In this document: positions 36,878 to 63,807 of the stretch, piece after piece
Layout of the letters: each line of letters starts with the position of its first letter
Numbering within the stretch: position 1 is the stretch's first letter
From: Micromonospora sp. DSM 45708
GTDB lineage: Bacteria; Actinomycetota; Actinomycetes; Mycobacteriales; Micromonosporaceae
DNA length: 64,000 bases
Direction of reading: 5' to 3'
NCBI RefSeq assembly: GCF_039566955.1
Contig: NZ_CP154796.1
Span: 3,286,001-3,350,000, forward strand
The notes under the pieces: model-generated
Told to the model about the DNA's origin: nothing
The model's input: the letters and a program-made list of their open reading frames with translations, nothing else
Database searches by the model: none
Program-made: the position numbers and the translations under genes

Positions 36878-37104
36878 CAACCTGACCCTCGGTCGGCGGG
36901 GACCTGCCGTTGTCCGGCGCGCACGCGTCATCCGGGAGCCACGGGTCCCCTCTGCGGGGAAGCTATGGCGTCGCGCTGAGCTGCGACAACCCCTAACCCG
37001 TACGCCCGGCGGGCTAGGGGGTGGCCGGGCCGGCGGCGACGCGGTTACCGTCCGGTGGACCGCCCTGGCGCCCGGGTCGCGGGCGCCACCGCCGGAAGGA
37101 CCGC
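36878..37104. promoter_or_regulatory. Divergent promoter region between PKS B and thioesterase with inverted CCCCTAA/CTAGGGG sites
   Basis: CCCCTAA lies at 36990-36996 and the inverted CTAGGGG at 37014-37020. Towards PKS B, TTAGGGG is followed at once by TTGTCG, an 18-bp spacer and TAGCTT, a good -35/-10 candidate. Towards the thioesterase, CTAGGGG is followed by GTGGCC, 18 bp and TTACCG. The inverted pair fits one activator serving both directions, with each copy pointing to its own gene. Confidence 0.6.
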
Positions 37105-37110
37105 GTGACG

Positions 37111-37866
37111 ATGACCGACCACGACAACGGCCTGTGGGTTCGCCGGTTCCATCCGGCCCCGGACGGTGCCCCCCGGCTGGTGTGCCTGCCGCACGCCGGG
37201 GGCTCCGCGAGCTTCTTCTTCCCGGTGTCCCGGGCGCTGTCACCGGCGGTGGAGGTGCTCAGCATCCAGTACCCGGGCCGGCAGGACCGCCGGCACGAGC
37301 CCTGCGTGCCGAGCATCGGGGAGCTGGCCCGGCAGTTGGCCGACGTGCTGCGGCCCTGGCGGGACCGACCGTTGGCGTTCTTCGGGCACAGCATGGGCGC
37401 GACGCTGGGCTTCGAGGTGGCGAGGCTGCTCGAGGCGGAGGGCGGGCCGGTTGCGCACCTGTTCCCGTCCGGCCGCCGGGCCCCGTCGTGCCACCGGGAC
37501 GAGACGGTGCACCTGCTCGACGACGAGGGCCTGCTGGCCGACGTGAAGAAGCTCAGCGGCCCCAACTCGGCGGTGCTCGGCGACCCGGACATGCTGCGTG
37601 CCGCGTTGCCGGCGATCCGCAGCGACTACCGGGCGGCGGAGACCTACCGATACGCGCCGGGGCCGAAGCTGAGCTGCCCGGTCACGGTGTTCACCGGGGA
37701 CGCCGACCCGAAGACCACTGTGGACGAGGCGAGGGCGTGGTCGGAGCACACCACCGGCGCGTTCGACCTGCACGTCTTCCCGGGCGGGCACTTCTTCCTG
37801 GCGTCCCACCAGCCGGCGATCCTGCGTACCCTCTCGGGTGCGTTGACCGGCACGGCGGTCCGCTGA
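37111..37866 (+). CDS. rifR: Type II thioesterase (editing thioesterase of the PKS)
   Basis: This 251-aa alpha/beta hydrolase has the nucleophile motif FFGHSMGA, an early [10 protein letters not shown] oxyanion segment, and late GDADPKT (Asp) and FPGGHFFL (His) segments, all typical of RifR/GrsT-type stand-alone thioesterases. These hydrolyse mis-primed or stalled acyl groups from carrier proteins. The ATG at 37111 has GGAAGGA at 37094-37100; an in-frame GTG at 37105 is an alternative start. It is transcribed alone, divergent from PKS B and convergent with the methyltransferase gene. It is not a chain-terminating enzyme: it is separate from any PKS module and has the usual editing-type length. 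Confidence 0.93.
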
Positions 37867-43400: not shown

Positions 43401-46400
43401 CGGACGCATGGCCAGCGACGCCGCCTCGACCACCGGCACGCCGGCCGGGTCGGTGGCGGACAACGCGAACGCGTGCGGGCCGACCCGGCGCAGCCGTACC
43501 CGCAGCGTGGTGGCGCCGGTGGCGTGCAGGGTGAGCCCGTTCCAGGCGAACGGCAGCAGGATCCGGTCACCGCCGGCGTCGGCGAGACCACCGAAGTGCG
43601 CGGCGTGCAGCGCGGCGTCGAGCAGCGCCGGGTGCAGCGCGTACCGGTCGGCGTCGGCGCGCGGGCCGGCCGGCAGCTCCACCTCGGCGTACACCTCGTC
43701 GTCGCCGGTCCGGACCGCGCGCAGGCCCTGGAACGCCGGGCCGTAGCCGTACCCCTCGTCGACCAGGCGGTCGTAGAAGCCGGTCAGGTCGACGGCGCGG
43801 GCGTCCGGCGGCGGCCCGGCCGGCGTCGCCGGGGTGGGTTCGGCGGCGGAGAGCGTGCCGCTGCCGTGCCGGGTCCACGGCGCGTCGGCCGGGCCGGCGG
43901 CGGGCCGGGAGTGCACGGTGACCGGCCGGCGGCCGTCGTCGGCGGCCGGGCCGACCGCGACCTGCACCTGGGTCGCGGCGTCCTCGGGCAGCGTCAGCGG
44001 CGCCTCGATGACCAACTCGTCGAGGGCCGGGCAGCCGACCTCGTCGCCGGCGCGCAGGCACAGCTCGACCAGCCCGGTGCCGGGCACCAGCACCCGGCCG
44101 GCGACCCGGTGGTCGGCCAGCCAGGGCTGCTCGGCGACCGAGAGCCGGCCGGTGAACAGGTGTCCCCGGCCGTCGGCCAGCGGCACGGACGCGCCGAGCA
44201 GCGGGTGCCCGGCGGCGGCCAACCCGGCCGCGCCCACGTCGGCGGTCCCGGTGACCGGGCGGGGCCAGTAGCGGCGGTGCGCGAACGCGTACGTGGGCAG
44301 GTCGACCCGGCGTCCGCCGGCCAGCACCGGCTGCCAGTCCACCGGCACGCCGCGCACGTGTAGCGCGGCCACGGAGAGCAGGAACCGGGCCCGGTCACCC
44401 CGGCCGCGCTGCACCGAGCCGACCACCACCGCCGGGTGGTCGTGCTCCTGGAGCGTCTGCTCGATGCCGGGCGTGAGCACCGGGTGCGGGCTGCACTCGA
44501 CGTACGTGAGGTGCCCCTCGGTGGTCAGCGCGCGCACCGCGTCGGCCAGTTCGACCGGCTGGCGCAGGTTGCGGTACCAGTAGTCCGGGTCCATCTCCTC
44601 GCCGCCGAGCCAGCACAGGTCGGTGGTCGAGTAGAGCGGCACCGCCGCCGGTCCGGGCGTGACGCCGGCGACGGCCTCGGCCAGTTCGGCGCGGATGCGC
44701 TCCACCTGCGGGGAGTGGGAGGCGTAGTCGATCGCGAGCCGGCGCAGCCGTATCCGGTCGGTCTCCAGTTCGGCGGCGAACGCGTCGACCGCGTCCGGCT
44801 CGCCGGAGACCACCACGTTCGCCGGACCGTTGACCGCGGCCACGGCGAGCCGGTCGCCGTACCGGGCGATCCGCTCGCGGACCGTGCCGACGGGCAGCGG
44901 CACGGCGGCCATCACCCCGGCGCCGGCCAGCTTGCGCAACGCGCGGGCACGCAACGCCACCAGCCGGGCGGCGTCCGGCAGGGAGAGCACGCCGGCCACG
45001 CAGGCGGCGGCGATCTCGCCCTGCGAGTGGCCGACCACGGCGGCGGGCTGGACGCCGTACGAGCGCCACAGCTCGGCCAGCGACACCATCACCGCGAAGA
45101 GCAGCGGCTGCACCACGTCGGCCCGCTCGGCGTCGGGCGTGCCGGGCGCCTGGCGCAGCAGGTCCCGCAGCGGATGGCCCAGCCAGGGCCGCAGCGCGGC
45201 GTCGCAGGCGGCCATCCGCTCGGCGAACACGGGCGCCTCGTCGAGCAGGTCCAGCGCCATGCCGGCCCACTGGGAACCCTGTCCGGGGAAGACGAACACC
45301 ACCTTGCCGGTGGCGGTGACGTCGCCGCGTACCAGGTCGGTGGCGGGCTCGCCGGCGGCGAGCGCGTCCAGGCCGGCGGCGATCTCGGCCGGGCCGCCGA
45401 CCAGCACGGCCCGGTGGTCGAAGCCGGCCCGGGTGGTGGCCAGTGACCAGGCCACGTCCAGCGGTGGCTGCTCGGGCCGGTCGGCGAGGTGGTCCCGCAG
45501 CCGGCGGGCCTGCCCGGCCAACGCCTCCGGGGTACGCGCGGAGAGCAGCCACGGCAACGCCGCCGGCCCGGCCGGCGGCGCGGCGTCGACGGCCGGCTCG
45601 GCCGGCACGGCCTCGACCACCACGTGCGCGTTGGTGCCGCTGATGCCGAACGAGGAGACGCCGGCGCGGGCCGGCCGGTCGGTACGCGGCCACGGCCGGG
45701 CCTCGGTGAGCAGGTCGACCGCGCCGGCCGCCCAGTCGACGCGGCTGGTGCGGTGCGCGGCGTGCAGCGTGCGGGGCAGCCGGCCGTGCCGCATGGCGAG
45801 GATGACCTTGAGCATCCCGGCGACGCCGGCCGCGGCCTGGGTGTGGCCGAGGTTCGACTTCACGGAGCCGAGCAGCAGCGGCGGGACGCCGTCGGGGCGG
45901 CGGCCGTAGGTGGCGAGGATGGCCTCGGCCTCGATCGGGTCGCCGAGGGGCGTGCCGGTGCCGTGCGCCTCGACCGCGTCCACGTCGGCCGGGTCGAGCC
46001 CGGCGGCGGCCAGCGCGGCCCGGATCACGCGTTCCTGGGACGGCCCGTTGGGGGCGGTCAGCCCGTTGGACGCGCCGTCGGAGTTGACCGCCGAGCCGCG
46101 GACCACGGCCAGCACCGGGTGGCCGCGCCGGCGGGCGTCGGAGAGCCGTTCCACCACCAGCACGCCGACGCCCTCGGACATGCCGAACCCGTCGGCGTCC
46201 TCGGCGAACGCCTTGCAGCGGCCGTCCGGGGCGAGCCCGCGCTGGCGGCTGAACCCGGTCAGCCCGGCCGGGCTGGACAGCACCGACACGCCACCGGCGA
46301 GCGCCAGGTCGCAGTCGCCCTGACGCAGCGCCTGGGCGGCCAGGTGCAGCGCCACCAGGGACGCGGAGCAGGCGGTGTCCACGGTGACCGCCGGCCCCTC

Positions 46401-49400
46401 CAGCCCCAACGCGTACGCGACCCGCCCGGAGAGCACGCTGGCGGCGGTGCCGGTGAGCAGGTGCCCCTCGTCGGCGACGGTCTCACCGTCGTCGGCGGTG
46501 GCGCCGGGGGCGATCCGGTCGGCGTAGTCCTGGCCGTGGGTGCCGGCGAACACGCCGGTACGGCTGCCGCGCAGCGTGTCCGGGTCGATGCCGGCCCGTT
46601 CGAGCGCCTCCCACGAGGTTTCCAGCAGCAGCCGGTGCTGCGGGTCCATGGCGAGCGCCTCGCGCGGGCTGATGCCGAAGAACGCGGCGTCGAAGTCGGC
46701 GAGGCCGGTGAGGAAGCCGCCGGCCCGGGTGTAGGTGCGGCCGGGCGTGCCGGGCTCCGGGTCGTACAGGTCGGCCAGCGGCCAGCCCCGGTCGGTGGGC
46801 AGGTCGCCGATGACCTCGCCGCCGGCGTCGAGCAGCCGCCACAGCTCCTCCGGGGAGCCGATTCCGCCGGGGAACCGGCAGGCCATCGCGACGATCGCGA
46901 CCGGCTCGTCCAGCGCGACGGTGGCGGCGTCGGCGACCTCGGTGGCGGCGGTGCCGAGCAGCCGCGCGTGCAGGTGCGCGGCGAGCAGCTCCGGGGTGGG
47001 GTGGTTGAAAACGGCGTGCGGGGCGAGCCGGACGCCGGTGGCGGCGGAGAGCCGGTTGCTCAGCTCCACCGCCATCAGCGAGTCGAAGCCGAGTTCCTTG
47101 AACGGCCGGCGCGGCTCGATCTGTTCCGGCCCGGCGTGCCCGACGACCGTGGCGCAGCGGGTGCGGACCAGGTCGAGCAGGAGCGCGGCCCGGTCCGGCT
47201 CCCCGAGGCCGGCCAGGCGGTCGGCGAAGCCGGTGCCGGCGCCGGTGCCGGGCTCGGCGACGACGGCCCGGCGCGGGGCCGGCGGCAGCAGCGCCCGTAG
47301 CAGCGCCGGCACCTCCCCGGTGGCGCGGACGGCGGCCAGGTCCAGGCCGATCGGCACCAGCGTCGCCGGCTCGGCGCGCAGCGCGGCGTCGAACAGCGCC
47401 AGCCCGGCGGCGGCGTCCAGCGGACGGGTGCCGGTGCGGGCGAGCCGGGCCAGGTCGGCGGCGGTGAGTCGGCCGGCCATCCCGTCGGTCTCGGCCCACA
47501 GGCCCCAGGCGAGCGCGGTGCCGGGCAGCCCGAGGGCGCGCCGGTGCGCGGCGAGCGCGTCGAGGAACGCGTTGCCGGCGGCGTAGTTGCCCTGGCCGGG
47601 GCTGCCGAACGTGGCCGAGGCGGAGGAGAACAGCACGAACGCGGCCAGGTCGAGGCCGGCGGTCAGCTCGTGCAGGTGCCAGGCGCCGTGCACCTTGGCC
47701 CGCAGCGCCCCGGCCCAGCGGTCCGGGTCGAGGTCGGTGAGCAGCGCGTCGTCGGTGGCGCCGGCGGCGTGCACGACGGCCACCAGCCGGTCGGCGAGCG
47801 GGGCCAGCACGGCGGCGAGCGCGTCCCGGTCGGCCACGTCGGCGGCGACCACCCGGACGTCGACGCCGGTCGCCGCCAGCTCGTCGGTCCACGCTGCGGG
47901 CCGGCCGGTGCGGCTGAGCAGCACCAGCTCCCGCACGCCGTACGCCTGCGCGAGGTGGACCGCGACGTGCCGGCCGATGCCGCCGGTGCCGCCGGTGAGC
48001 AGCACCGCGCCGCCGGCCAGCGCGGGTCGGGCGGCGGCGTCGGGCTCGGTGGCCGGGCGGAGCCGGGGCAGCAGCGCGCGGCCGTCGCGGACCGCGACCT
48101 CGGGTTCGTCGTCGGCGGCGGCCAGCGCGGCGCGGACCGTGGCGTCGTCGAGGGTGTCCAGGTGCAGCAGCAGGAACCGGTCGGGGTGCTCGGCGCGGGC
48201 CACCCGGAGCAGGCCGGCGGCCGGGGCGTGCGCCGGGTCGCCGTCGCGGACCGCCACCGCCAGCCGGGTGTCGGCGGCGCGCGGGTCGTCGAGCCAGCGG
48301 TGGAGCACGCCGAGCAGGTCCAGGCCGATCGCGTCGGCGCGCTGCGCGACGCTGGTGTCCGGATCGCCGTCGGGCAGACGCAGCACCAGCACCGGCGGCA
48401 GCGGCCCGGTCGCCGGGACCGCGTCGGCGAGCGTCCAGGTGGGCACCGGGCCGGTCGGGGCGGGCCGCCAGTCCACCGTGTAGAGGCCGGCCGGGCCGGT
48501 CTCCGGCGCCGGTGCGGCGGCGGCCGACGGCAGCGTCACGGCCCGCAGCGCGATCCGGTCGACGTCGAGCACCGGCCGACCGGCGTCGTCGACGGCGGTC
48601 AGCGTCACCGCGTCCGCGCCGGCCGGGGCGAGGCTGACCCGCAACGCGTACGCGCCGGTGGCGTGCCGGCGCACACCGGTCCAGTCGGTGGGCACGATCC
48701 GCTCCCCCGGCCCGGCCGGCGGGGCGAACCCGGCCAGTGGGAGCAGGCCCAGCGCGGCGTCGAGCACGTCCGGGTGCACGCCGTACCGCTCGGCGTCCGG
48801 GTCGGCCGCGTCGTCGGGCAGCCGTACGTCGAGGTGCAGCCGGTCCCCGGCGGTCCAGGCGGCCCGCAGCAGCGGATGCGCCGCCTCGACCGGGCGGGCG
48901 CCGGCCGGCGGCCAGGCCGGGGCCGGTACGCCGGGCCCGGCGAGCGGGTCGACCGGGGCGAGCACCGCGTCCGCGACCGCCCGCCACGGCTCGTGCTCGC
49001 CGGCGCGGACGTGGCAGCGGGCGGCGCGGCGGCCGGCGGCGTCCGGGGCGGCGACGTCGATCTGGAGGTCGACCGCGAGGCCGGCGGGCAGCGGGGCCGG
49101 TGCCGGCATCCGCAGGTCGGCCAGGACCGGCGTGTCGAGGCGCTCCCCGAGGTGGCCGAGCGCGTCGAGCAGCGCGGCGGCGGGCAGCAGCGGCGCGGTG
49201 CCGTCCGGGGTGGCCGGCCGGGTGGCGGTGAACCGTCCGGTGGCGAGCACCTGGCCGGTGCCGGCGACCGGCAGCACGGCGGCGAGCAGCGGGTGACCGG
49301 CGTCGCCGGTCGGCGCGCCGGGTGTGGCGGGCAGCCAGTAGTGCCGGTGCCGGAACGCGTAGGTGGGCAGCGCGACGGGCACGTGCGGGCCGGGGCCGGC

Positions 49401-52400
49401 CAGCGCGGCCCGGTCCACCGGCGCGCCCCGGACGTGCAGCCGGGCGGCGGCGGTGAGCAGCGCCGCCGGTTCGGGTGTGCCGGCGCGCAGCGTGGGCACG
49501 AACGCCAGGTCGTCGCTGGCGTCGGCGAGGCAGTCGGCGGCCATCGCGGTGAGCACGCCGCCGGGGCCGATCTCCAGGAACGTGGTGGCGCCCTCGGCGT
49601 GCAGGGCGCGGACGCCGTCGGCGAAGCGCACGGTGTCGCGGACGTGCGCCACCCAGTGCTCGGGCGAGGTGAGCCGGGCCGCGTCGACAGGCGCGCCGGT
49701 CAGCGTGGACACCACCGGCAGTTGCGGCGCGCGGTAGGTCAGCCCGGCGGCGACCTCCCGGAACGCGTCGAGCATCGGCGCCATCCGGGGCGAGTGGAAC
49801 GCGTGCGACACCCGCAGCCGGCTGGTGCGGCGGCCGGCGGCGCGCAGCGTCGCGGCGACCGCCTCGACCGCGTCGGCGTCGCCGGAGAGCACCACGCTGG
49901 TCGGCCCGTTCACGGCGGCCAGCCCGACCCGGTCGGTCAGGTGCGGGGCCACCTCGGTCTCGTCGGCCTCCACCGCGACCATCGCGCCGCCGGCCGGCAA
50001 CGCCTGCATGAGCCGGCCCCGCGCGGCGACCAGCGCGGCGGCGTCGGCGAGCGTGAGCACGCCGGCCACGTGCGCGGCGGCGATCTCGCCGATGGAGTGG
50101 CCGAGCAGCAGGTCCGGGCGGACGCCCCAGGATTCGAGCAGCCGGTGCAGCGCCACCTCGACGGCGAACAGCGCCGGCTGGGTGTAGCGGGTCTCGTCGA
50201 GCAGCGCCGCCCGCGCGTCGCCGTCCGGGGCGAGGACCACGTCGGCGACCGGGTGCCCGGTGAGGTGCCGGTCCAGTTCGGCGGCGGCGGCGTCGAACGC
50301 CTCCGCGTAGACCGGGTACGCCGCGTGCAGCTCCCGGCCCATGCCGGCGCGCTGTCCGCCCTGCCCGCCGAAGAGGACGGCGAGCCGGCCGTCGGAGACG
50401 CGGCCGGTGAGCACGCCGGCCGGGTCGGTGTCGCCGCGGCTCAGCGCCGTCAACCCGGCGCGGGCGTCGGCCGGGTCGCCGATCAGCAGCGCCGCCCGGT
50501 GGTCAAGCGCCGCCCGCGTGGTGGCCAGCGCGTACGCCACGTCGGCCGGGTCGGCGTCGATCCGGTCGAGCCGGCTCAACAGCCGGGCCGCCTGGTCACG
50601 CAGGCCCTCCCGGCTCGCCGCGGACAGCAGCCACGGCACGACGCCGGCCGGGGCCTCGCGGGTGACCGGCGGTGGGGTCGGCGTGGCGGGGGCCGCCTCG
50701 ACGACGACGTGGGCGTTGGTGCCGCTGATGCCGAACGAGGAGATCCCGGCGCGGCGGGGCCGGTCGACGTCGGGCCACGGCCGGGCGTCGGTGAGCAGCT
50801 CGACCGCGCCGGCCGACCAGTCGACCTCGCGGCTCGGCGCGTCCACGTGCAGCGTGCGCGGCAGCGTGCCGTGGCGCAGCGCGAGCACCATCTTCATCAC
50901 CCCGGCCGCGCCGGCCGCCGCCTGGGTGTGTCCGAGGTTCGACTTGAGCGAGCCGAGCAGCAGCGGACGGTCCGCCGGGCGGTCCTGCCCGTACGTGGCG
51001 AGCAGCGCCTGCGCCTCGATCGGGTCGCCGAGCCGGGTGCCGGTGCCGTGCGCCTCGACCGCGTCCACGTCGCCCGGCCCGAGGCCGGCGGTGGCCAGCG
51101 CCCGCCGGATGACCCGTTCCTGGGCCGGCCCGTTGGGGGCGGTGAGCCCGTTGGACGCACCGTCGGAGTTGACCGCGCTGGCGCGCAGCAGCGCCAGCAC
51201 CGGATGGCCGTGGCGGCGGGCGTCGCTGAGCCGTTCCAGCAGCAGCACGGCCACGCCCTCGGACCAGCCGGTGCCGTCGGCAGCCTCGGCGAACGCCTTG
51301 CACCGGCCGTCCGGCGCGAGTCCGCGCTGGCGGCTGAACTCGACGAACGCCTGCGGGGTGCCCATCACCGCGACGCCGCCGGCCACCGCGAGCGCGCAGT
51401 CCCCGGCGCGCAGCGCCTGCGCGGCCAGGTGCAGCGCGACAAGCGACGACGAGCAGGCGGTGTCCACGGTCACCGCGGGCCCCTCCAGGCCCAGCGCGTA
51501 CGCGACCCGCCCGGAGACCACGCTGCCGGCGGTGCCGACACCGAGGTAGCCCTCGGTGCCGGGCGGCGCCTGACCGACGTTGGCCGCGTAGTCGTGGTGC
51601 ATCACGCCGGTGAACACGCCGGTGGCGCTGCCGCGCAGCCCGGTCGGGTCGATCCCGGCGCGCTCGAACAGCTCCCAGGACGTCTCCAGCAGCAGCCGCT
51701 GCTGCGGGTCCATGGCGAGCGCCTCGCGCGGGCTGATCGCGAACAGGGTGGCGTCGAAGTCCCCGGCACCGGCCAGGAACCCGCCCACCCGCACGTACGA
51801 GGTGCCGGCCCGGTCGGGGTCGTCGGCGAACAGGTGCGCCAGGTCCCAGCCCCGGTCGGTGGGGAAGCCGGTGAGCCCTTCGCCGCCGGATTCGAGCAGC
51901 TCCCACAGCTCGTCCGGGCCGGTGACGCCGCCGGGCAGCCGGCACGCCATGGCGACGATGGCCACCGGGTCGTCGGCGGCGACCGGACCGGACCGGGCGG
52001 CGGCGTCGGTCGGGCCGGCGCCGCGCAGCAGCGTGGCCAGGTGCCGGGTGAGCGCGGCGGGCGTCGGGTGGTCGAACGCGGCGGTGGCGGAGAGCCGGGC
52101 GCCGGTGGCCCGGTTCAGCCGGTCGCGCAGCGCGACCGCGCGGACCGAGGTGAACCCGAGTTCGGTGAACGCCCGTCCGGGCCGGACCGCGCCCGGGCCG
52201 GGCAGCCCGGCCACCTCGGCGGTGGCGGCACGGACCAGGTCGGCCAGGAGGCGGTCGCCGTCGGCGGTGGTGAGCGCCGCGAGCCGGCGGCGCAGCAGGT
52301 CCGCGTCGTCGTCGGGCCGGGCCGGGCCGCGCCAGGCCGGGTGGGCGGCCACCCGCTCGGCCAGGCCGGCCACCAGCACCAGGTCGTCGCCGTCGTGCGC

Positions 52401-54941
52401 GGCGTCGAACGCGGCGGCCTCCGCCCGCGCCGGTCCGGTGACGCCGATCAGCCGGGCCGGCAGCCCGGCCGCGTGCCGGCGGGCGACGAGCGCGTGCAGC
52501 GCGGCGACCGCGCCCGCCGCCGGTTCCCGTCCGGCGACGCCGAGCAGCAGGTCGGCGGGGACCAGCACGGTGTACGCGGTGGCGCCGGCGTGCCGGGTGT
52601 CCCGGTCCAGCCGGCCGGCGAGGTCGAGCAGCCGGGCGGTCCGGTCCGGGTCGGTCAGGTCGGCGTCGGCGACCCGCAGCACGGCCGCGCCGACCGGTTC
52701 CCCGTCCCGGGTCGAGACGTCGGTGGTGGGGCCGTCGACCGGCAGCAGCCGCAGCGACCGGGCCCCGTACGCGCCGGTCAGGTGTCGGGCCAGCGCCGCC
52801 CGCTCGGCGGTGTCCGCGCCGGCCAGCACCACCGGCGCGGCCGGGTCGAGCACCGTGGCGGCGTGTTCCCTTGCCGGCGCGGCGGCCGGCGCGGGCACCG
52901 CGTACCGGGCGGTGCCGGCGCGCAGCGCGACCTGGGCGGCGCCGGCGTCCACCACGGACGGCAGCAACGCGGCCGAGCCGGGGTCGGCGTCGGCGTCGAC
53001 GAGCACGGTCCGGCCCGGTCGGGCGGCCTGCCGGCAGCGCATCCGGGCCCAGGCGACGGCGGCGGCCGGGACCAGGTCGGGGTCGTCGGGCGTGTCGGCG
53101 GTGGACGCGTCCACCGCGCCGGTGGTCAGCACCACCACCCGGGCGGCGGCGTGCCGGGCGTCGTCGAGCCAGCCGGGCAGCGCCGCCGGGTCGACGCCGG
53201 CCAGCACCAGCACGTCCGCGCCGGTGTCGGTGGAGTGGGCGCCGGTGTGGACGTCCTCGCCCTCGGCGGTCAGCGCGGCGGCGACCGCCCCGGCCTGTGG
53301 CCCGACGACCGCCCAGCGCCGGCCGGGGACGCGGTCGACCGGTTCCAGCGGACGCCAGGTGAGCCGCGTCAGCGCCTCGTGGTGCGCGCCGTTGACCGCA
53401 CGTAGCCGGGCCGGCATCTCCCCCAGCAGCCGCCGGGTGACCTTCCCGGAGGCGGTACGCGGCACCGCGTCGATCTCGTACAGCTCCTGCGGCACCTTGT
53501 GGTACGCGAGCCGTTCGCGGCAGGCGGCGTACGCGGCGGCCGGCACGAAGCCCTCCGGCGCGGGCACCACGTACGCGACCGGCACCTCGCCGAGCACCTC
53601 GTGCGGGCGGCCGGTGACCGCGACGTCGGCTACGCCGGGCACCGCGCGCAGCACGTCCTCCACCTCGACCGGGTGCACCTTCTCCCCGCCCCGGATGACG
53701 AGTTCCCGGTGCCGGCCGGTGACGAAGAGGTTCCCGTCGGCGTCGCGGCGGGCCAGGTCGCCGGTGCGGTACCAGCCGTCGCGCAGCGCCGCCGCGGTGG
53801 CCTCGGGCAGCCCGTGGTAGCCGAGCATGACGCTCGGGCCACGTACCCACACCTCGCCCTCGTCGCCGGTCGGCACGTCGCGGCCGGTGTCCGGGCTGAC
53901 CAGGCGCACCTGCACGCCGTCCACGGCCCGGCCGCAGGAGCCCTCGACCCGGGGCTCGTCCGGGCGGGTCACCGCGATCGAGCCGCACGTCTCGGTGCTG
54001 CCGTACGCGTCGAGCAGCGGCGCGTCGAAGACGTCCTCGAACGCGCGGCGCAGCTCGCCGGTGGTGATCGCGCCGCCGACCAGGCACACCCGCAGCGCGG
54101 GCGCGCGGAACCCGTCGGCGCGCGCGGCGTCGACCAGGTGGTGGTACATGGCGGGCACGCCGGCCAGCACGGTCGCCTCGTCCTCGGCGACCGCGCGCAG
54201 CACGTCGGCGGCGGCGAAGCCGTCGACCAGGCGGGCGCTCGCGCCGACCGCGGTCACGCTCAGCACGCAGCCGATGTGGGAGAGGCTGTGGAACAGCGGC
54301 AGCGGCCAGACCACCCGGTCGGCGGAGGTCAGGCCGGGCACCGGCACGTAGCAGGCGGCCACCGACCAGAGGCAGGTGCGCTGGGTGGAGAGCACGCCCT
54401 TGGGCCGGCCGGTGGTGCCGGAGGTGTAGAGCATCCAGGCGACCTCGTCCAGGCCGAGGTCGTCGCGGGCGTCGGCGGCCGGCGGCGCGTCGACCAGCGC
54501 CGGCCAGGCCGTCGCCGGCTCCGGGTACGGCCCGTCGCCGGTCACCCAGATGCGCAGGTCGGGCCGGTCCGCGCGCAGCCGCAGGAGCTGGTCGAGGTGC
54601 TGCGGGTCGGTGACCACCAGCACCGCGCCGGAGTCGTCGAGCAGGTGGGCCAGCTCGGCGTCCGTGCTGCGCGGGTTCAGCGGTACGCCGACCGCCGCGG
54701 CCCGGGTCACGGCCAGCCAGGTCTCCACCGTCTCCACCCGGTTGCCCAGGCAGAACGCGACCCGCTCGCCCCGGCCGACGCCCGCGTCGACCAGGTGCCC
54801 GGCCAGCCGGCGGGTGACCGCCTCCAGCGCGGCCCAGGACACCGCCCGGTCCGCGTCGCGGAACGCCACCTGGTCCGGCAGCCGGCCGGCGTGGGCCCGG
54901 AGCAGTTCGGGCAACGGCTGGACCAGGTCACTCCGAAGCAT
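40428..54941 (-). CDS. Type I modular polyketide synthase A: AHBA loading module and modules 1-2
   Basis: 4,837 aa, RifA-like. Residues 1-520 are an acyl ligase ([11 protein letters not shown] near 171-181, GWYRTGDLA, and a C-terminal PRTASGK lysine), predicted to activate AHBA. Residues 530-880 are a KR-like remnant without catalytic residues, followed by an ACP with GFTS serine. Module 1: KS 990-1410, AT (HAFH near 1715), a degenerate DH, KR near 2313-2450, ACP near 2619. Module 2: KS 2680-3105, AT (YASH near 3404), DH (His near 3605), ER (HAGAGGVGM near 4234), KR 4410-4554, ACP 4715, then a docking tail ending IDTELGL. It has no N-terminal docking helix, as expected for the first protein of the line. 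It leads an operon with the monooxygenase and the methyltransferase. AHBA as substrate is inferred from the neighbouring AHBA genes. Confidence 0.97.
40600..46910 (-). other. PKS A module 2: KS-AT(methylmalonyl)-DH-ER-KR-ACP
   Basis: The AT has [11 protein letters not shown] and IDYASHS (methylmalonyl). The DH has [11 protein letters not shown], the ER has [13 protein letters not shown], and the KR has [13 protein letters not shown] and NYAAAN. All look active. The KS active site reads TACSAS. Confidence 0.88.
46955..51985 (-). other. PKS A module 1: KS-AT(malonyl)-DH(inactive)-KR-ACP
   Basis: The AT has GHSIGEI and SHAFHS. The DH region begins with [18 protein letters not shown] as usual, but the whole LADHxVxGxxxxP block is missing. 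The segment instead reads [20 protein letters not shown], so the catalytic His is gone while the later HPDVLDAAL Asp remains. The KR has [10 protein letters not shown] and NYAAGN and looks active. A beta-hydroxyl is expected. Confidence 0.87.
52010..54941 (-). other. PKS A loading module: AL - KR-like remnant - ACP
   Basis: The AMP-forming ligase has the [11 protein letters not shown] core and an YGSTET motif. The 350-residue segment after it begins with LTRLTWRPL, as KR structural subdomains do, and contains VVVLTTGAV and a Rossmann-like [12 protein letters not shown], but has no catalytic Ser/Tyr/Asn set. The ACP motif is ELGFTSVRA, with Thr in place of the usual Asp before Ser. Confidence 0.85.
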
Positions 54942-55125: not shown

Positions 55126-55902
55126 ATGGAACGCTCCTGGTTGTTCGCCGACCTCGCCGTGCCCGGCGCGGGATGCGTCGACGCGCGGGCGGCCGAGCTG
55201 GTCGGCACGGTGCTGGCGGGGCTGGTGGCCGAGCTGCGCGCCGCCGACCCGGGCGGCTGCTGGTTCTTCGACCGGCTCGACGCCCCCGGCCCGGCCCGGC
55301 TGCGGCTGGGCCTGCACGCCGGGTCCGCCGCGCTGGACCTGGCACGGGACCGGCTCGGCCCGTCGGCCCGGCCGGCGCCCCCGGCGTACGCGGTGCGCGA
55401 CCCGGCCCGGGGCGGACCGCTCGCCCACGCCGGCAGCGAGGTGGCGCTGGGCCTGCTCGGCGGGGAGCCGCCGTGGCTGGCCGGGCTGGAGCTGCCGCTC
55501 GCGGTGGCGCACCTGCGGCACCTGTGCGGGCTGTTGCCGGCCGGCGACCGGGCGTCCTTCCTGTTCCTGCACTGGCAGGACCGCAGTCGCGTGCTGACCG
55601 GGGCGCAGCGCCGGGACCTCGCCGCGCAGGCGCACGCCGGCGCCGACAAGATCGTGTTGGCCGCCGCCGACCTGCCGCTCGCCGACGATCCGGTGTCGGC
55701 GGCCTGGCGCCGTTACCTGGACCGGGTGACCGAGGTGGTCGCCGAGGACCATCCGGCCGCGCCACGCGGTTTCCTGATCGCCGAACACGCCCAGCTCAGC
55801 CACCGCCGCTGGGGCATCGACCCGGCCGTCGACTCGCTGGCCGCGCTGGCGTTGCGGCTGGCCGGGCACACCGTCCCCGCAACAGGTGGGAGAGTCGGAT
55901 GA
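55126..55902 (+). CDS. Stand-alone lanthipeptide-dehydratase C-terminal-like (SpaB_C / thiopeptide-type) protein
   Basis: 258 aa. The segment CWFFDRLDAPGPARLRLGL matches the hallmark WFF-RY-DPGPHLRLR of the SpaB C-terminal / thiopeptide-type domain. HAGSEVALGLL and the final AEHAQLSHRRWGIDP also fit that domain (the H-NR-G pattern). In ribosomal peptide pathways this domain eliminates glutamate from activated Ser/Thr or, in TclM/TbtD-type enzymes, performs a formal [4+2] cycloaddition. Here there is no dehydratase N-domain, no precursor peptide and no other RiPP gene. The ATG at 55126 has GAGG upstream, and its stop overlaps the aminodehydroquinate synthase start (ATGA), so it belongs to the AHBA operon. 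Its function is unknown; a pericyclic, eliminating or amide-related step in the ansamycin pathway is speculation. It is not a RifF-type N-acetyltransferase: that fold's Cys-His-Asp motifs are absent. Confidence 0.7.
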   Translation: MERSWLFADLAVPGAGCVDARAAELVGTVLAGLVAELRAADPGGCWFFDRLDAPGPARLRLGLHAGSAALDLARDRLGPSARPAPPAYAVRDPARGGPLAHAGSEVALGLLGGEPPWLAGLELPLAVAHLRHLCGLLPAGDRASFLFLHWQDRSRVLTGAQRRDLAAQAHAGADKIVLAAADLPLADDPVSAAWRRYLDRVTEVVAEDHPAAPRGFLIAEHAQLSHRRWGIDPAVDSLAALALRLAGHTVPATGGRVG

Positions 55903-56909
55903 CCGCCGTCGAACGGGTCGACGTGGCGCTGGGTGACCGCGCGTACCCGGTGCTCGTCGGTCCCGGTGTGCGCCACCGGCTGGCCGCGGAGGTGGCGCGC
56001 GTCGGGGCCCGCCGGGTCGTGGTGGTGTCGGCCCGGCCGCCGGAGTGGACGCCCGACCCGGGCGTGCCGCACCGGGTGGTGCCGGCCCGCGACGGCGAGC
56101 ACGACAAGTCGCTGGCCACCGTGGAGGCGCTGTGCCGGGCGTTCGCCGAGTTCGGGTTGACCCGTGCCGACGCGGTGGTCTCCTGCGGCGGCGGCACCAC
56201 CACCGACGTGGTCGGCCTGGCCGCCGGCCTCTACCACCGGGGCGTCGCGGTGCTGCACCTGCCGACGTCGTTGCTGGCCCAGGTGGACGCCAGCGTCGGT
56301 GGCAAGACGGCGGTGAACCTGCCGGAGGGCAAGAACCTGGTCGGCGTCTACTGGCAGCCGCGCGCGGTGCTCTGCGACACCGACTACCTGGACACGCTGC
56401 CGGCGGTGGAGCGGCGCAACGGCTACGGCGAGATCGCCCGCGCGCACTTCATCGGCGCCGGTGACCTGCGCGGCCGGACGGTGACCGAGCAGATCACCGC
56501 GTGCGTGGCGCTCAAGGCCCGGGTGGTCGCCGCCGACGAGCGCGACGCCGGGCTGCGGCACATCCTCAACTACGGTCACACGCTCGGTCACGCGTTGGAG
56601 CGGGCCACCGACTTCCGGCTGCGGCACGGCGAGGCGGTCGGCGTGGGCACGGTGTTCGCCGGGCGGCTGGCCGGCCGGCTCGGTCGGATCACTCCGGCGC
56701 GGGTGGCCGAGCACCACGAGGTGGTCGCCGGCTACGGCCTGGCCACCGCGTTGCCGTCCGGGGTGACGCACGACGAGCTGATCGCGTTCATGCGCCGCGA
56801 CAAGAAGTCCACCGCCGGCCTGACCTTCGTGCTGGACGGCGGGGGCGGCCCGGAACTGGTCCCCGACGTGCCGGAGACCGAGGTCCGCGCCGCCCTTGCC
56901 GGGATGTAG
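55899..56909 (+). CDS. rifG: Aminodehydroquinate synthase (3-dehydroquinate synthase homologue, AHBA pathway)
   Basis: 336 aa, full length for the family. The SCGGGTTTDVVGLAAG motif, PTSLLAQVDASVGGKTAVN, and the metal-binding histidines in LNYGHTLGHALE and RHGEAVGVG are those of dehydroquinate synthases. In ansamycin clusters the homologue (RifG) cyclises aminoDAHP to aminodehydroquinate. The ATG at 55899-55901 overlaps the stop of the preceding gene. It is separated from the other AHBA genes by the protease cassette, which is transcribed towards it and ends 23 bp away. A primary shikimate enzyme is possible by sequence, but the context makes the amino-pathway role much more likely. Confidence 0.92.
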   Translation: MTAVERVDVALGDRAYPVLVGPGVRHRLAAEVARVGARRVVVVSARPPEWTPDPGVPHRVVPARDGEHDKSLATVEALCRAFAEFGLTRADAVVSCGGGTTTDVVGLAAGLYHRGVAVLHLPTSLLAQVDASVGGKTAVNLPEGKNLVGVYWQPRAVLCDTDYLDTLPAVERRNGYGEIARAHFIGAGDLRGRTVTEQITACVALKARVVAADERDAGLRHILNYGHTLGHALERATDFRLRHGEAVGVGTVFAGRLAGRLGRITPARVAEHHEVVAGYGLATALPSGVTHDELIAFMRRDKKSTAGLTFVLDGGGGPELVPDVPETEVRAALAGM

Positions 56910-56932
56910 GTGGTACGGGATCGGAGACGCGA

Positions 56933-58791: not shown

Positions 58792-59481
58792 TCAGCGCGC
58801 CGCCGGGCAGTGCGTCAGCAGTTCCTCGGGCTTGTGCGCGACCAGGTCGGGGCCGGCGGCCAGCAACGCGGTCACGTCCCCGCCGTGCCAGGTGGTGGCC
58901 ACCGTGGTCACCCCGGCGTCCCGGCCGCTGGTCAGGTCCGTGATCGCGTCACCGACCATCATGGCCGCGCCCGGCGGCATGTCGAGCAGCTCCAACGCGC
59001 GCAGCACGATGTCCGGCGCCGGCTTGGGGCGGGGCACCTCGTCCGAGCCGATCACGTGGTCGAAGAGCGCGAGCACGCCGAGCAGGTCCAGCAGGGACCG
59101 GGCGCGGGGACCGCTCTTGCCGGTGGCGACCGCCATCCGGACGCCGCGCTCGTGCAGCGCCTCCAGCGTCTCCCGGACGCCGGGGAACAGCGGCACCCGG
59201 TGCGCCAACCGGTAGCTCTCCCGGACGAACGGCGCCTCCATCTCCAGCGGCAGTCCCATCAGCCGCATGATGTCCGGGAAGTACCGTCCCATGTGCTGGT
59301 TGTACTCCTCGAACGGCGCCGGCCCGCCGCCCACCACCTCGGCGTACGCGACGCTGAACGCCTCGCGCATCACCGCCGAGCTGTCCACCACGACGCCGTC
59401 GAGGTCGAACACGACCGCCCGGATGGGGCCCGGACGCGGGGCGAGGACGGCGGCGCCGGCGGTCGACGGCGGCTGGCTCAT
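58792..59481 (-). CDS. rifM: HAD-family phosphatase of the AHBA pathway
   Basis: 229 aa. HAD motifs are VVFDLDGVVVDS (nucleophile Asp and acid Asp), ATGKSGPRA (motif II), PRPKPAPD (Lys) and MVGDAITD (motif IV). It resembles the RifM-type phosphatases that sit beside AHBA synthase and take part in making the amino-sugar precursor of aminoDAHP. The ATG at 59479-59481 has GGGAG upstream. It follows the oxidoreductase by 34 nt in a three-gene AHBA synthase operon. The order synthase-oxidoreductase-phosphatase matches rifK-rifL-rifM. Confidence 0.9.
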   Translation of the reverse strand: MSQPPSTAGAAVLAPRPGPIRAVVFDLDGVVVDSSAVMREAFSVAYAEVVGGGPAPFEEYNQHMGRYFPDIMRLMGLPLEMEAPFVRESYRLAHRVPLFPGVRETLEALHERGVRMAVATGKSGPRARSLLDLLGVLALFDHVIGSDEVPRPKPAPDIVLRALELLDMPPGAAMMVGDAITDLTSGRDAGVTTVATTWHGGDVTALLAAGPDLVAHKPEELLTHCPAAR

Positions 59482-59515: not shown

Positions 59516-60637
59516 TCACCGGTCGCGCGCTCCCGCCAGCGCGGGCACCGGCGGGGTGGGCCGGGCGCAGCGGTAGACGCGTTCGATGGCGTCGATGGTG
59601 CGGCGGGCGTCGGCGGCGGCCACGCCCCGGTTCGCCGGGTCGGCGAGCAGGCCGGGCAGCGCGTCGAGCTGCCGGTCGTACTCGGCGCCGATGGTCTCGG
59701 CGGCCAGCGGCAGGGCGACCGTCTCGCCGTCGCGGGTACGGGTCAGCTCCGGCGCGCCGAGCCGGTTCGGGCTGAACCCGAACGTGCAGCGCAGCGTCGC
59801 CGAGCCGCGGGTGCCGTGCACGGAGATGGTGGTGCGGTCCGTCGCCTCGTGCGACGCCCAGCAGGCGTGCAGCGCGGCGGACGCGCCGTCGGCGGTGAGC
59901 AGGAACGCGCGGGCGGTGTCCTCGACGTCGCCGCGTCCACCGGGCCCGGCGGTGCCGCGCCAGGCGGCCTGCGCGGCACCGTCGTTGACGAAGTCGTCGG
60001 AGACGCTGCCCACCGCGTGCGCGATCGGCGCCGGGCCGAGCAGCGGCAGCACCGTGTCGAGCAGGTGCCAGCCCAGGTCGACGAGCGCGCCGCCGCCGGA
60101 GAGGACCCGCCTGGTGAACCAGCCGCCGGCGTCGGGCACGCCCCGGGCGCGTACCCAGGCGACGTCGACGTGCCGGACCGGCCCGAGGTCGACCACGGCC
60201 CGCAGCAGGGCCCGCACGTCGGCGCGGTAGCGGGCGGCGCTGCCGGCCAGCAGCACCGCGCCGCCGGCGCGCTCGGCGTCGGCCAGCTCGTCGGCCTCGG
60301 CCGAGGTGAGGCAGACCGGCTTCTCCAGGAACACCGGTACGCCCCGGCGCAGCAGCCGGGCCGCGACGGCGGCGTGCAGGTGGTTGGGGACCGCCACCAC
60401 CACCAGGTCGGCGGCGTCGGTGGGCAGGTCGGCCACGTCGGCGTACGCGTCGGGCACGCCGTGCGCGGCGCGGGCCCGGTCCCGGGCGGCGGCGTCCGGG
60501 TCGATCACGGCGGTCACCGTGAACCGCTGGTGCGCGGCGAGCCGGGGCAGCCAGATCTGCCGCCCGGCCCAGCCGAGACCGGCCACCGCGACCCGGACGG
60601 TACGCCCCGGCGCGGCGGCCGGCTGCGGCCCGGTCAT
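59516..60637 (-). CDS. rifL: Gfo/Idh/MocA-family oxidoreductase of the AHBA pathway
   Basis: 373 aa. The N-terminal Rossmann motif VAVAGLGWAGRQIWLPRL and the FLEKPVCL segment are typical of Gfo/Idh/MocA dehydrogenases. The ALVDLGWHLLDTVL stretch carries the conserved catalytic-region Asp/His. RifL-type enzymes are thought to work with AHBA synthase (acting as a transaminase) to make 3-amino-3-deoxy sugar from UDP-glucose on the way to kanosamine and aminoDAHP. The ATG (60635-60637) overlaps the AHBA synthase stop as ATGA, so the two are translationally coupled, in keeping with joint action. Confidence 0.9.
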   Translation of the reverse strand: MTGPQPAAAPGRTVRVAVAGLGWAGRQIWLPRLAAHQRFTVTAVIDPDAAARDRARAAHGVPDAYADVADLPTDAADLVVVAVPNHLHAAVAARLLRRGVPVFLEKPVCLTSAEADELADAERAGGAVLLAGSAARYRADVRALLRAVVDLGPVRHVDVAWVRARGVPDAGGWFTRRVLSGGGALVDLGWHLLDTVLPLLGPAPIAHAVGSVSDDFVNDGAAQAAWRGTAGPGGRGDVEDTARAFLLTADGASAALHACWASHEATDRTTISVHGTRGSATLRCTFGFSPNRLGAPELTRTRDGETVALPLAAETIGAEYDRQLDALPGLLADPANRGVAAADARRTIDAIERVYRCARPTPPVPALAGARDR

Positions 60638-61791
60638 CCGGCCAGCACGTCGGCGAGCACGGCGGCGATCTGGTGCATCTGCTCCTCGGTGCCGAGCAGC
60701 GTGCGGTGGTGCAGCCAGACGCAGTCGGCGTGGATCTGCTCGACGTTCGGGCACCGCTCGGCGATCTGCTCGACCGTCTCGTCCGGCGCGCCGGCCAGCC
60801 AGAAGCCGTCGCAGCGGTAGATGGCGCGGAACGCGACGAACGCCGGGATGCCCCGGGCGATCAGCTCGTCGACCACGACCCGGCGGCGTTCCGACGTGAT
60901 GCCGGGGATCCGGAACATGGCCATGTAGTGCGGGTTGCGGTCGCCGCGCGGGTCGCGGCCCTGCGGCACCACGCCGGGGATCTCGGCGAGCAGGCTCGCC
61001 AGCAGCGGCCAGCGCTGCTCGCGCACCGCGATCTGACCGTCCAGCCGGGACAGTTGGGCGCGCAGCACGGCGGCGCTGAACTCGTTCATCCGGTAGTTCG
61101 AGCCGGTGGTGCGGTGCAGGTAGTCGCGGTCGGTGCGGGGCCGGCCGCAGCTGTGCACCAGGAACGCCTTCTCGTAGCTCTCCTCGTCGGGGAAGAGCAC
61201 CGCGCCGCCCTCGCCGGCGGTCATCAGCTTGCCGTTCTGGAAGCTGAACGCGGCGACCGAGCCGAGTTCACCGACCCGCTTGCCCTGCCACTGCGCGCCG
61301 TGCGCGTGCGCGGCGTCCTGGAGCAGCGCGACACCGGCGTCCGCGGTGATCTTGTCGAGCGCGTCCATGTCGGCGAACTGCCCGGCCATGTGCACGGGCA
61401 TCACCACCCGGGTCCGGTCGGTGATGGCGGCGGCCACCGCGTCCGGATCGACGCAGTAGGTGTCCAGGTCCACGTCGACCGGCACGGCCACCGCGCCGAG
61501 GCGCTGCGCGGCCAGCGACGACGAGATGAACGTGAAGGCCGGGACGATCACCTCGGTGCCCGGTCCGACGCCCAGGACCTCCAGCGCCACCTCCAGCGCG
61601 TGCGTGCCGTTGGTGACGGCCAGCGCGTGCGACGACCCGTGGTACGCGGCGAACTCGGCCTCGAACGTGTCGACCTCGTTGCCTCCGACGCGCCACCACT
61701 GGCCCTGCTCCAAGGCCCGGATGAGGCCGGTCCGTTCCTCGTCGCCGAACTGCGGCCACTCGGGGAACTCCGGTGCCGACAGATCACTCAT
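60634..61791 (-). CDS. rifK: 3-amino-5-hydroxybenzoic acid (AHBA) synthase
   Basis: 385 aa, close to the RifK length. It is a PLP-dependent DegT/DnrJ/EryC1-type enzyme with FQNGKLMTAGEGGAV holding the PLP lysine, VTNGTHALEVALE for phosphate binding, and QDAAHAHGA with the cofactor-contacting Asp. AHBA synthase aromatises aminodehydroshikimate to AHBA and defines ansamycin and mitomycin clusters. The chosen start (61789-61791, MSDLSAPEFPEWP) has AGGGAG upstream and matches the family N-terminus; a start 60 nt upstream is possible but would run into the motif-rich promoter. First gene of the leftward AHBA operon. Confidence 0.96.
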   Translation of the reverse strand: MSDLSAPEFPEWPQFGDEERTGLIRALEQGQWWRVGGNEVDTFEAEFAAYHGSSHALAVTNGTHALEVALEVLGVGPGTEVIVPAFTFISSSLAAQRLGAVAVPVDVDLDTYCVDPDAVAAAITDRTRVVMPVHMAGQFADMDALDKITADAGVALLQDAAHAHGAQWQGKRVGELGSVAAFSFQNGKLMTAGEGGAVLFPDEESYEKAFLVHSCGRPRTDRDYLHRTTGSNYRMNEFSAAVLRAQLSRLDGQIAVREQRWPLLASLLAEIPGVVPQGRDPRGDRNPHYMAMFRIPGITSERRRVVVDELIARGIPAFVAFRAIYRCDGFWLAGAPDETVEQIAERCPNVEQIHADCVWLHHRTLLGTEEQMHQIAAVLADVLAG

Positions 61792-61973
61792 GATGTCCCA
61801 CTCCCTGATCCAGATTGGAACGGCCCGGCAGGACGCTAACCGAGCCGGCACGGCGCTGACCTCCCCTAACGGCCCCTAGCCGCCCCTAACCGCCCCCTGC
61901 CGGCGGGGTCCGCGCCGGGGGCGGGGCCGATACTCCGATGACCTGTCGTCGTCCTTCTCCGGTGAGGTGCAAC
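61792..61973. promoter_or_regulatory. Divergent promoter region of the AHBA operons with four phased CCCCTA-type repeats
   Basis: Plus-strand copies CCCCTAA (61863), CCCCTAG (61873), CCCCTAA (61883) and CCCCTGC (61894) follow each other every 10-11 bp, about one helix turn. Towards AHBA synthase the last copy (TTAGGGG) is followed at once by AGGTCA, an 18-bp spacer and TAGCGT, a likely -35/-10 pair. The phased array suggests cooperative binding of an activator along one DNA face. This is the longest array of the motif in the window. Confidence 0.65.
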
Positions 61974-62405
61974 GTGCCCGAGGTGCTCCTGCTCAACGGC
62001 CCGAACCTGGGCATCCTCGGCAGACGGGAACCGGAGATCTACGGCACCGACACGCTGGCGGACATCGAGCGGGCGGTCGGCGAGGAGGTCGCCGGGCGGG
62101 GGTGGCGGGTCGTCGCGAGGCAGCACGACTGCGAGGGCGAGATGATCCGTACCATCCAGGACAGTTATGAGACGGTGGGCGCGATCGTGAACCCGGGCGC
62201 GTTGATGATCGCCGGTTGGAGCCTGCGCGACGCGCTGGCCAACTATCCCCACCCGTGGCTGGAGGTCCACCTGTCCAACGTGTGGGCCCGGGAGAGCTTC
62301 CGGCACGACTCGGTGCTCGCCCCGCTGGCCGCGGGGGTGATCGTGGGCCTCGGCGCGCTCGGCTACCGGCTGGCGGCCCGCGCGCTCGTCGCGACCGTGC
62401 CCTGA
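61974..62405 (+). CDS. rifJ: Aminodehydroquinate dehydratase (type II dehydroquinase)
   Basis: 143 aa from the GTG at 61974, preceded by a GGTGAGG ribosome site; an ATG at 61938 would add 12 residues that do not fit the family N-terminus. Type II dehydroquinase motifs are all present: LLNGPNLGILGRREPEIYG (catalytic Arg/Tyr loop), IVNPGAL, LEVHLSNVWARESFRHDSV (catalytic His) and VIVGLGALGY. In AHBA clusters (RifJ) it converts aminodehydroquinate to aminodehydroshikimate, the substrate of AHBA synthase. First gene of a rightward operon divergent from AHBA synthase. Confidence 0.93.
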   Translation: MPEVLLLNGPNLGILGRREPEIYGTDTLADIERAVGEEVAGRGWRVVARQHDCEGEMIRTIQDSYETVGAIVNPGALMIAGWSLRDALANYPHPWLEVHLSNVWARESFRHDSVLAPLAAGVIVGLGALGYRLAARALVATVP

Positions 62406-62829: not shown

Positions 62830-63807
62830 GTGACGGGCGGGCCGGTCGCCGCGCTGCTGGGCGTCGACGTCGGAGGCACGAAGGTCGCGCTGCGCGCCGA
62901 GGCGGCCGGCCGGCCCGCGTACGAGCGGATCGTCATCTGGCCGGCCGGCGCGGACCCGGCCGGCGACCTGGCCGTGCTGGCCGCCGAGGTGGCCGCGCTG
63001 CGCGTCGGATTCGGTCCGGTCGACGCGGTCGGCGTGGCCATGCCGGCGACCGTCGACCGGGCCGGCACGGTCGTGGCCTGGCCCGGCCGGCCGAGCTGGG
63101 TCGGCCTGGACCTGGCCGGCACGCTGCGTCGTCTGTTCCCCGACACCCCGACCGGGTACGCCGACGACGGCGACCTGGCGGCGCTGGCCGAGGCCCGCCA
63201 CGCGGGCCGCGACGACGTGCTCTACCTCGGGGTCGGCACCGGTGTCGGCGGCGGGATCGTGCTCGGTGGGCGCAACGCCCCGACCGGCGCGTCCGCCGAG
63301 GTCGGGCACATGGTGGTCGACCTGGGTGGGGACCGGTGCGACTGTGGACGGTCCGGCTGCCTCCAGGCGGTCGCGTCCGGGCCGGCCACGCTGCGCCGCG
63401 CCGCCCGGCTCCGCGGTGGGCCGGTCGACCACCATCGGCTGCGCGCCGGGCTGGACGACGGCCGGCCGTGGGCGGTGGAGGCGATCGCACCGAGCTGCGC
63501 CGCGCTGGCCGCCGCGGTGGTGAGCCTCGGCGAGCTGCTCGCCGCCGACCTGGCGATCGTCGGCGGCGGGTTCGCCACCGGCCTGCCCGGTTTCGTGCCA
63601 CTGGTCGGGCACCTCGCCGCCGGCCGTCCGGGGCGGCCCGCGCCCCGGGTCGCCGCCGCCGCGCTCGGCGGGCTCTCCTCGCTGCACGGCGCGCTGCACC
63701 TCGCCCGCGACCTCGCGGGCGTCCCGGTCGTGTCCACGGCCGCGCATCCGACCAGCACCCCGGTCCCGGCCGGGACCGGGAACTCGACCAGGGAGGCCAG
63801 TCAATGA
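62830..63807 (+). CDS. rifN: ROK-family sugar kinase (kanosamine 6-kinase type)
   Basis: 325 aa from the GTG at 62830, with GAGG at 62821-62824. ROK motifs: LLGVDVGGTKVAL (phosphate loop), YLGVGTGVGGGIVLGG, and the zinc signature EVGHMVVDLGGDRCDCGRSGCLQ. In rifamycin biosynthesis RifN phosphorylates kanosamine (3-amino-3-deoxyglucose) to feed aminoDAHP synthesis, and the AHBA context points to the same reaction here. A plain glucokinase cannot be excluded by sequence alone. Its stop overlaps the next ATG. Confidence 0.9.
   Translation: MTGGPVAALLGVDVGGTKVALRAEAAGRPAYERIVIWPAGADPAGDLAVLAAEVAALRVGFGPVDAVGVAMPATVDRAGTVVAWPGRPSWVGLDLAGTLRRLFPDTPTGYADDGDLAALAEARHAGRDDVLYLGVGTGVGGGIVLGGRNAPTGASAEVGHMVVDLGGDRCDCGRSGCLQAVASGPATLRRAARLRGGPVDHHRLRAGLDDGRPWAVEAIAPSCAALAAAVVSLGELLAADLAIVGGGFATGLPGFVPLVGHLAAGRPGRPAPRVAAAALGGLSSLHGALHLARDLAGVPVVSTAAHPTSTPVPAGTGNSTREASQ

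Follow-up and report, generated by a model that had tools for sequence, protein, structure and literature searches.

The window analysed here is a stretch of 64,000 nucleotides from a complete Micromonospora genome of 7.02 Mb, in which it spans positions 3286001-3350000. Its features are collected in Table 1. At their centre is the gene for P0001, a protein related by fold to the SpaB_C domain of RiPP-modifying enzymes, followed by a gene for aminodehydroquinate synthase (aDHQS), the ring-closing enzyme on the way to AHBA, an aminobenzoate that serves some large antibiotics as starter unit. The TGA stop codon of the first gene overlaps the ATG start codon of the second as ATGA (55899), in agreement with the overlap proposed in an earlier note on this DNA. 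The source of P0058, which is 87% identical to the window aDHQS, gives its name as 5-deoxy-5-amino-3-dehydroquinate synthase. A scan for promoters and terminators found nothing.

Table 1. Features of the window (positions counted from its first nucleotide).
Feature	Position	Strand	Basis or content
Third PKS protein	17531..31423	-	3 KS, 3 KR, 3 carrier domains; no DH or ER match
Second PKS protein	31445..37243	-	one module KS/AT/DH/KR/ACP
First PKS protein	40428..54941	-	AMP-ligase loading, 2 KS, 2 AT, 2 DH, 2 KR, 1 ER, 3 carrier domains
SpaB_C-fold protein P0001, 258 aa	55126..55902	+	open, intact ORF; fold from predicted model
Aminodehydroquinate synthase (DHQ synthase family, RifG-like)	55899..56909	+	PF01761 E 4.5e-40, DHQS_C 4e-32
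HAD phosphatase (RifM-like)	58792..59481	-	family match
Gfo/Idh/MocA oxidoreductase (RifL-like)	59516..60754	-	family match
AHBA synthase-like DegT/DnrJ/EryC1 aminotransferase (RifK-like)	60634..61851	-	family match
Type II dehydroquinase (RifJ-like)	61938..62405	+	family match
ROK family kinase (RifN-like)	62830..63807	+	family match

The RifM-, RifL-, RifK-, RifJ- and RifN-like labels are our own assumption, made from family and position. A RifI-like gene (shikimate dehydrogenase family) lies just outside the window, at 3350382-3351161. RifI-like genes are common at aDHQS loci without a SpaB_C gene, and both genes are present here and in L003, L004, L087, G406, G797 and G123, so there is no complementarity between them; SpaB_C as a replacement of RifI was rejected on this ground. 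No RifH-like gene (class II DAHP synthase) was found in the 230 kb around the cluster. The RifH-like matches of the genome all fall in one ORF at 1.317 Mb, and primary metabolism may thus supply the aminoDAHP synthase step. SpaB_C as a replacement of RifH was also rejected, since RifH stands beside SpaB_C in G406, G797 and G123. Between the aDHQS gene and the RifM-like gene are two minus-strand genes (56910-58791), one of 191 aa without a family and one of 379 aa with AbfB/ricin-like and Peptidase_C70 matches. They look newly inserted, because the close relative L003 has only 186 nt at this place.

Fold and active-site residues of P0001

From its own sequence, the SpaB_C assignment of P0001 would be weak: the match to PF14028 has an E of 4e-4 and 21.0 bits (cut-off 24.4) and covers residues 17-71 only, and that to NCBIfam thiopep_ocin has an E of 0.2. 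Six relatives were scanned with PF14028; the cut-off is passed by three (P0017 with 34.2, P0044 with 27.4 and Streptomyces L002 with 50.1 bits) and missed by the other three (L086 with 14.5, L119 with 15.8 and L087 with no match). Searches of PDB sequences with P0001 and with profile A3 gave no relevant match, and it was fold comparison alone that found the relatives. For the predicted structure of P0001, the best 13 Foldseek rows and the best 12 VIA rows all belong to the PF14028/LanB elimination-domain family, the VIA rows leaving room for other families. Using hhalign, the profile of the P0001 family aligned with seven other PF14028 proteins with a probability of 98.1 over 235 columns. As judged from the predicted model, we regard the LanB-elimination/pyridine-synthase fold of P0001 as settled. 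The earlier note had called P0001 a stand-alone protein of SpaB_C/thiopeptide type and had proposed a structure comparison; the model and the fold search agree with this, with TbtD/PbtD-type enzymes among the relatives and no N-domain in the chain.

TbtD, PbtD and TsrL, which are stand-alone SpaB_C pyridine synthases performing a formal aza-[4+2] reaction, share this fold at 13-18% identity to P0001. The setting of P0001 differs from theirs: its partner is aDHQS, its cluster lacks LanB-N, and its genome gave no YcaO match. The C-terminal elimination domains of NisB, MibB and MadB differ from P0001 in two respects: P0001 carries no N-domain in its chain, and its family has replaced the arginine at position 62 and the histidine at position 223.

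These two positions were read from a joint alignment, at ~20% identity, in which 56 rows of the family, many being close Micromonospora relatives, stand beside the seven other PF14028 proteins, five of which are near-copies. Among the comparison proteins are five that were left out of the family as weak class-sample matches (G151, G259, G307, G323 and G369, E 1.5e-4 to 5.5e-4). They are 440-482 aa long and pass the PF14028 cut-off, L016, L017 and L019 whole and the other two as cut pieces. P0001 position 62 is arginine in all seven comparison proteins, whereas 44 family rows have G, 8 have W, one has S and three have a gap (n=56). Position 223 is histidine in all seven; the family has Q in 44 rows, R in 4, G in 3, H in 3, A in 1 and E in 1 (n=56). 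By reading of the hhalign output, both positions are in the same register there. In NisB, roles are ascribed to R786, E823 and R826. The histidine at position 223 we take to be the equivalent of NisB H961, by way of the HM..NR motif. According to the accessible parts of PMC4341554, the H961A exchange abolished dehydration by NisB, and R784A had a mild effect only. The H961 equivalent and the conserved arginine that would mark a LanB glutamate eliminase are thus not kept by the family in this alignment at ~20% identity, and the key LanB elimination residues are, as far as the aligned rows tell, replaced.

The family has conserved residues of its own, down to proteins of about 30% identity. W150, R162, Y197 and R244 are present in 56/56 rows, H129, H221 and Q151 in 54/56, and H226 in 51/56. 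This set of histidine, arginine, tyrosine and tryptophan residues could equally serve as a new catalytic site.

Pairing with aminodehydroquinate synthase

In Micromonospora, a SpaB_C match (E <= 0.01) was found in at least 29 of 160 genomes, every one of which also has aDHQS. AHBA-type aDHQS itself occurs in 32 of the 160 (36 copies), and these 32 include all 29. Counts made with our first profile, A1, such as the 29 of 160, are lower bounds, because A1 missed the diverged G123 copy of the class sample that a wider profile caught. In Streptomyces, 12 of 295 genomes gave a match. Six matches are strong (E < 1e-40), all with an adjacent aDHQS; the six weak ones (E 2e-11 to 4e-4), which we take as other PF14028 proteins, include three in genomes without an aDHQS match, and in G604, G692 and G707 aDHQS lies on another contig or more than 1 Mb away. 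Streptomyces aDHQS is present in 23 of 295 genomes as 27 copies, six of them with a SpaB_C partner gene. Two of the weakly matching Streptomyces proteins (L138 and L139) pass the PF14028 cut-off, and the short ORFs behind their genes resemble RiPP precursors by reading. The class sample has aDHQS in 25 of 394 genomes, and its 23 newly fetched aDHQS loci (L097-L119, flanks 0.9-1.5 kb) have a SpaB_C gene at L119 only. Among the matches listed for the family sample (290 genomes) is G865, from another genus, where the two genes again overlap by ATGA.

The earlier note had proposed a survey of AHBA clusters for the gene. We collected aDHQS loci with both search kinds; removing 15 same-genome duplicates from 99 rows left 84 loci, which are not a random sample. 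A SpaB_C gene is present at 35 of them, in 34 of the 35 directly upstream of aDHQS and on the same strand. The other 49 loci, searched mostly over +-1.5 kb, have no SpaB_C gene, and this is where rifamycin-type AHBA clusters differ; their aDHQS is of the same family, with identities of 66-76% outside the qnm clade. aDHQS can therefore work without P0001-like proteins, and a helper would not be universal. No aDHQS residue among those compared cleanly splits loci with and without the SpaB_C gene.

The one exception to the arrangement is G524 (L087, 8015-8674), where an N-terminally incomplete SpaB_C copy stands 8.4 kb from aDHQS on the opposite strand and is possibly on its way to loss. We counted G524 (E 2.5e-11 with A1) as family and left out G579 (E 2.1e-11 with A4); the G524 copy scores 5e-56 with A2, of which it was itself part. 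This copy adjoins an AHBA-loading-like PKS. For spacing, we used 35 pairs with G865 in place of G524, taking as start whichever ATG or GTG was closest to the start used in the window. For the 33 of these 35 that gave a spacing, the genes overlap in 23, by 4 nt in 11 and by 20-23 nt in 12, and are 16-97 nt apart in 10. Named loci with the pair comprise eleven in Micromonospora and one on a Streptomyces plasmid. At L004 of Micromonospora sp. NBS 11-29 (10001-10767), the SpaB_C gene is split between two reading frames, with residues 1-65 in one and 72-258 in the other, through an assembly error or as a broken gene.

The two proteins also occur as one chain. A search with the joined pair (E <= 1e-150, 8000 candidates scored) listed 57 proteins, and only P0051 (631 aa) and P0052 (627 aa) covered the full query. 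Each has a nearly complete SpaB_C part, 47% (residues 1-231) and 40% (residues 1-237) identical to P0001, respectively, followed by the aDHQS part, which in P0051 is 79% identical to the window aDHQS. Between the parts is a linker of ~40 residues, in which, by reading, S, T, G and P abound in P0051, and the two fusions are 64% identical to each other. Their PF14028 scores are 17.8 bits for P0051 and no match for P0052 (cut-off 24.4). Both keep H129, W150, R162, Y197, H221, H226 and R244; Q151 is changed to R in P0051 and F147 to S in P0052.

The SpaB_C gene is constrained, yet changes roughly three times faster than its neighbour, with a median dN/dS of 0.55 versus 0.19 for aDHQS over the same 289 pairs of close Micromonospora loci (Nei-Gojobori, high-GC DNA and non-independent pairs, hence rough values). 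On the aDHQS tree of the 84 loci, presence of the SpaB_C gene requires at least four changes, of which the starred branches force only one, so the tree fits a single origin of the pairing as well as repeated origins or losses. Fast evolution and patchy distribution are what would be expected if the gene of P0001 were a remnant in decay, or encoded a regulator merely carried along in the aDHQS operon, as are the incomplete G524 copy, the L004 copy in two frames, and in-frame stops in the matches of a few genomes, perhaps mere read-through past the normal stop. We consider this very improbable: dN/dS is below 1, residues are kept in 56/56 rows down to about 30% identity, the gene overlap is kept across genera, and two diverged fusions exist.

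Polyketide and RiPP settings

The PKS ORFs lie on the minus strand at about 3167102-3340941 (genome coordinates), a region of ~174 kb in which a regular expression picks out 30 KS motifs, and the last ORF ends in a thioesterase domain (PF00975, 78.7 bits). No RifF-type amide synthase match was found in 230 kb at E <= 1e-5 (both queries PF00797), that is, the release step by which an ansamycin cluster would be recognised. According to the tables of PMC8698034, the first three PKS proteins of published quinolidomicin-type clusters have the same domain make-up as those here; the likeness extends to size and to presence in Micromonospora, where the available text of that paper describes such clusters as widespread, including in M. 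okii. Quinolidomicin has 34 modules and, in its revised structure, an amino group on the quinone (accessible parts of PMC9054317), which would fit an AHBA starter. A cluster of quinolidomicin type would have an AMP-ligase loading PKS with the matching order of modules, about 34 modules and more than 200 kb; the cluster here agrees with this type, as judged from its first three PKS proteins and the 30 KS motifs. Because of the thioesterase end, the lack of a RifF match in 230 kb and the quinolidomicin-like first PKS proteins, the cluster is AHBA-primed, macrolide-type and quinolidomicin-type, and not the ansamycin cluster that the earlier note had supposed.

The SpaB_C-aDHQS pair adjoins quinolidomicin-type PKS genes at Micromonospora loci L003-L010, L012 (M. 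okii) and L013. In G406, G797 and G123 it belongs to an AHBA block that also comprises RifH-, K-, L- and M-like genes, and the PKS sets nearby are other, smaller ones, that of G123 ending at the contig end. G406 resembles an ansamycin cluster, since it encodes an FAD monooxygenase as well as an N-acetyltransferase of RifF type; in G123 and G797 the pair is 13-18 kb from the nearest recognised PKS gene. Standing beside such different PKSs, the pair is not tied to one polyketide. These observations bear on the suggestion of the earlier note that P0001 could act on a polyketide or an AHBA-derived intermediate. Its place in a PKS cluster and its TbtD/PbtD fold would speak for elimination or cycloaddition on the polyketide, or on a polyketide intermediate derived from AHBA. 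We find this very improbable, as the key elimination residues are replaced, the gene tracks aDHQS from the 174 kb macrolide-type PKS to smaller sets (G406 with an amide synthase), the pair lies within the AHBA block in G123 and G797, and both fusions found are to aDHQS and none to a PKS.

The earlier note had also remarked on the lack of a RiPP setting, and here it holds. No PF04738 (LanB N) gene was found within 3.135-3.365 Mb, a YcaO search of the whole genome at E <= 0.01 gave no cyclodehydratase (five of 14 control genomes gave matches), and no RiPP precursor was seen among the called ORFs near the SpaB_C gene, where an overlapping frame could still hide one; between 54941 and 63807, the called genes leave just two gaps of more than 100 nt, 54942-55125 and 58658-58791. 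Neither the LanB N-domain and precursor of a class I lanthipeptide cluster nor the LanB-N and YcaO that accompany a thiopeptide pyridine synthase were thus found in the cluster.

Elsewhere the genome has four PF04738 genes (2.146, 2.158, 3.622 and 3.624 Mb; L182-L186), none less than 270 kb from the SpaB_C gene. They have no PF14028 partners, and the genome holds no other PF14028 match, as would suit a RiPP elimination domain acting in trans with these proteins. This is the least probable reading of all, and we give it hardly any weight: the key residues are replaced, no PF04738 gene lies within 270 kb, and the neighbouring proteins carry adenylation and ketosynthase domains (at 2.15 Mb also a condensation domain), the setting of amide-forming SnaE-type proteins, which do not co-occur with elimination domains according to the accessible parts of PMC11212132. 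The SnaE/PEARL-type 'lantibiotic dehydratases' described there are likewise LanB-related proteins in non-RiPP NRPS/PKS clusters; they have the N-domain PF04738 without PF14028, and P0001 is the reverse.

Proposed role in AHBA starter synthesis

Fusions, translational coupling and near-exclusive co-occurrence point to P0001 as a partner of aDHQS, and the loss of key RiPP residues together with fast change favours a helper over an eliminase. We therefore propose, with a probability of about 0.62, that P0001 is a dedicated partner of aDHQS in AHBA starter synthesis and neither an eliminase nor a [4+2] enzyme. A RiPP elimination fold that has lost its key residues would here be translationally coupled to aDHQS and probably bind it, the unfused proteins presumably making contact as the fused ones would. 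The old peptide-binding cleft may have been reused with the remade set H129, W150, R162, Y197, H221, H226 and R244, and the protein might shield or deliver aminoDAHP, or stabilise aDHQS.

The same remade and strongly conserved polar set, including H221, H226, R162, Y197 and R244, would also suit an enzyme with an undescribed reaction of its own on an AHBA intermediate (e.g. iminoE4P, aminoDAHP or aminoDHQ). Gene fusions often join consecutive pathway steps, such fusions with aDHQS exist, and the fold-search relatives are enzymes by title. Against such a reaction, 49 of 84 aDHQS loci are without the gene and no replacing AHBA gene was found, the RifI-like gene co-occurring with it here. We consider it unlikely, though less so than the other alternatives, and rank stabilising aDHQS or handing over aminoDAHP ahead of chemistry of its own.

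A stronger form of the partner reading, which we put forward tentatively and at less than even odds, is that a RiPP-tailoring fold has become a subunit on which one class of aDHQS depends, and that it has gained a new site, for catalysis or for binding, that acts on the unstable amino-sugar phosphate. Textbook rif-type AHBA pathways have no such second component, and an obligate subunit would mean a second, two-component AHBA route that is absent from them. In the accessible open-licence literature, supplementary tables aside, we found no description of a SpaB_C gene beside aDHQS, and the available parts of PMC8698034, PMC9054317, PMC11212132, PMC7268733, PMC5765111, PMC11965639, PMC13000494 and PMC4341554 make no mention of the gene.

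Taken as a whole, the analysis suggests that a fold of peptide-modifying enzymes was taken over to assist an enzyme that cyclises a sugar. Where SpaB_C genes occur in PKS clusters, they should be read with caution and not be taken as RiPP or cyclisation enzymes. For the engineering of AHBA-primed macrolides and ansamycins, the protein may be a limiting helper of precursor supply. To our knowledge, the SpaB_C fold has so far been known solely from peptide maturation; if our reading is true, it would extend to the synthesis of small-molecule building blocks, and a second type of AHBA pathway would be present in nearly a fifth of Micromonospora species (29/160 genomes, a lower bound).
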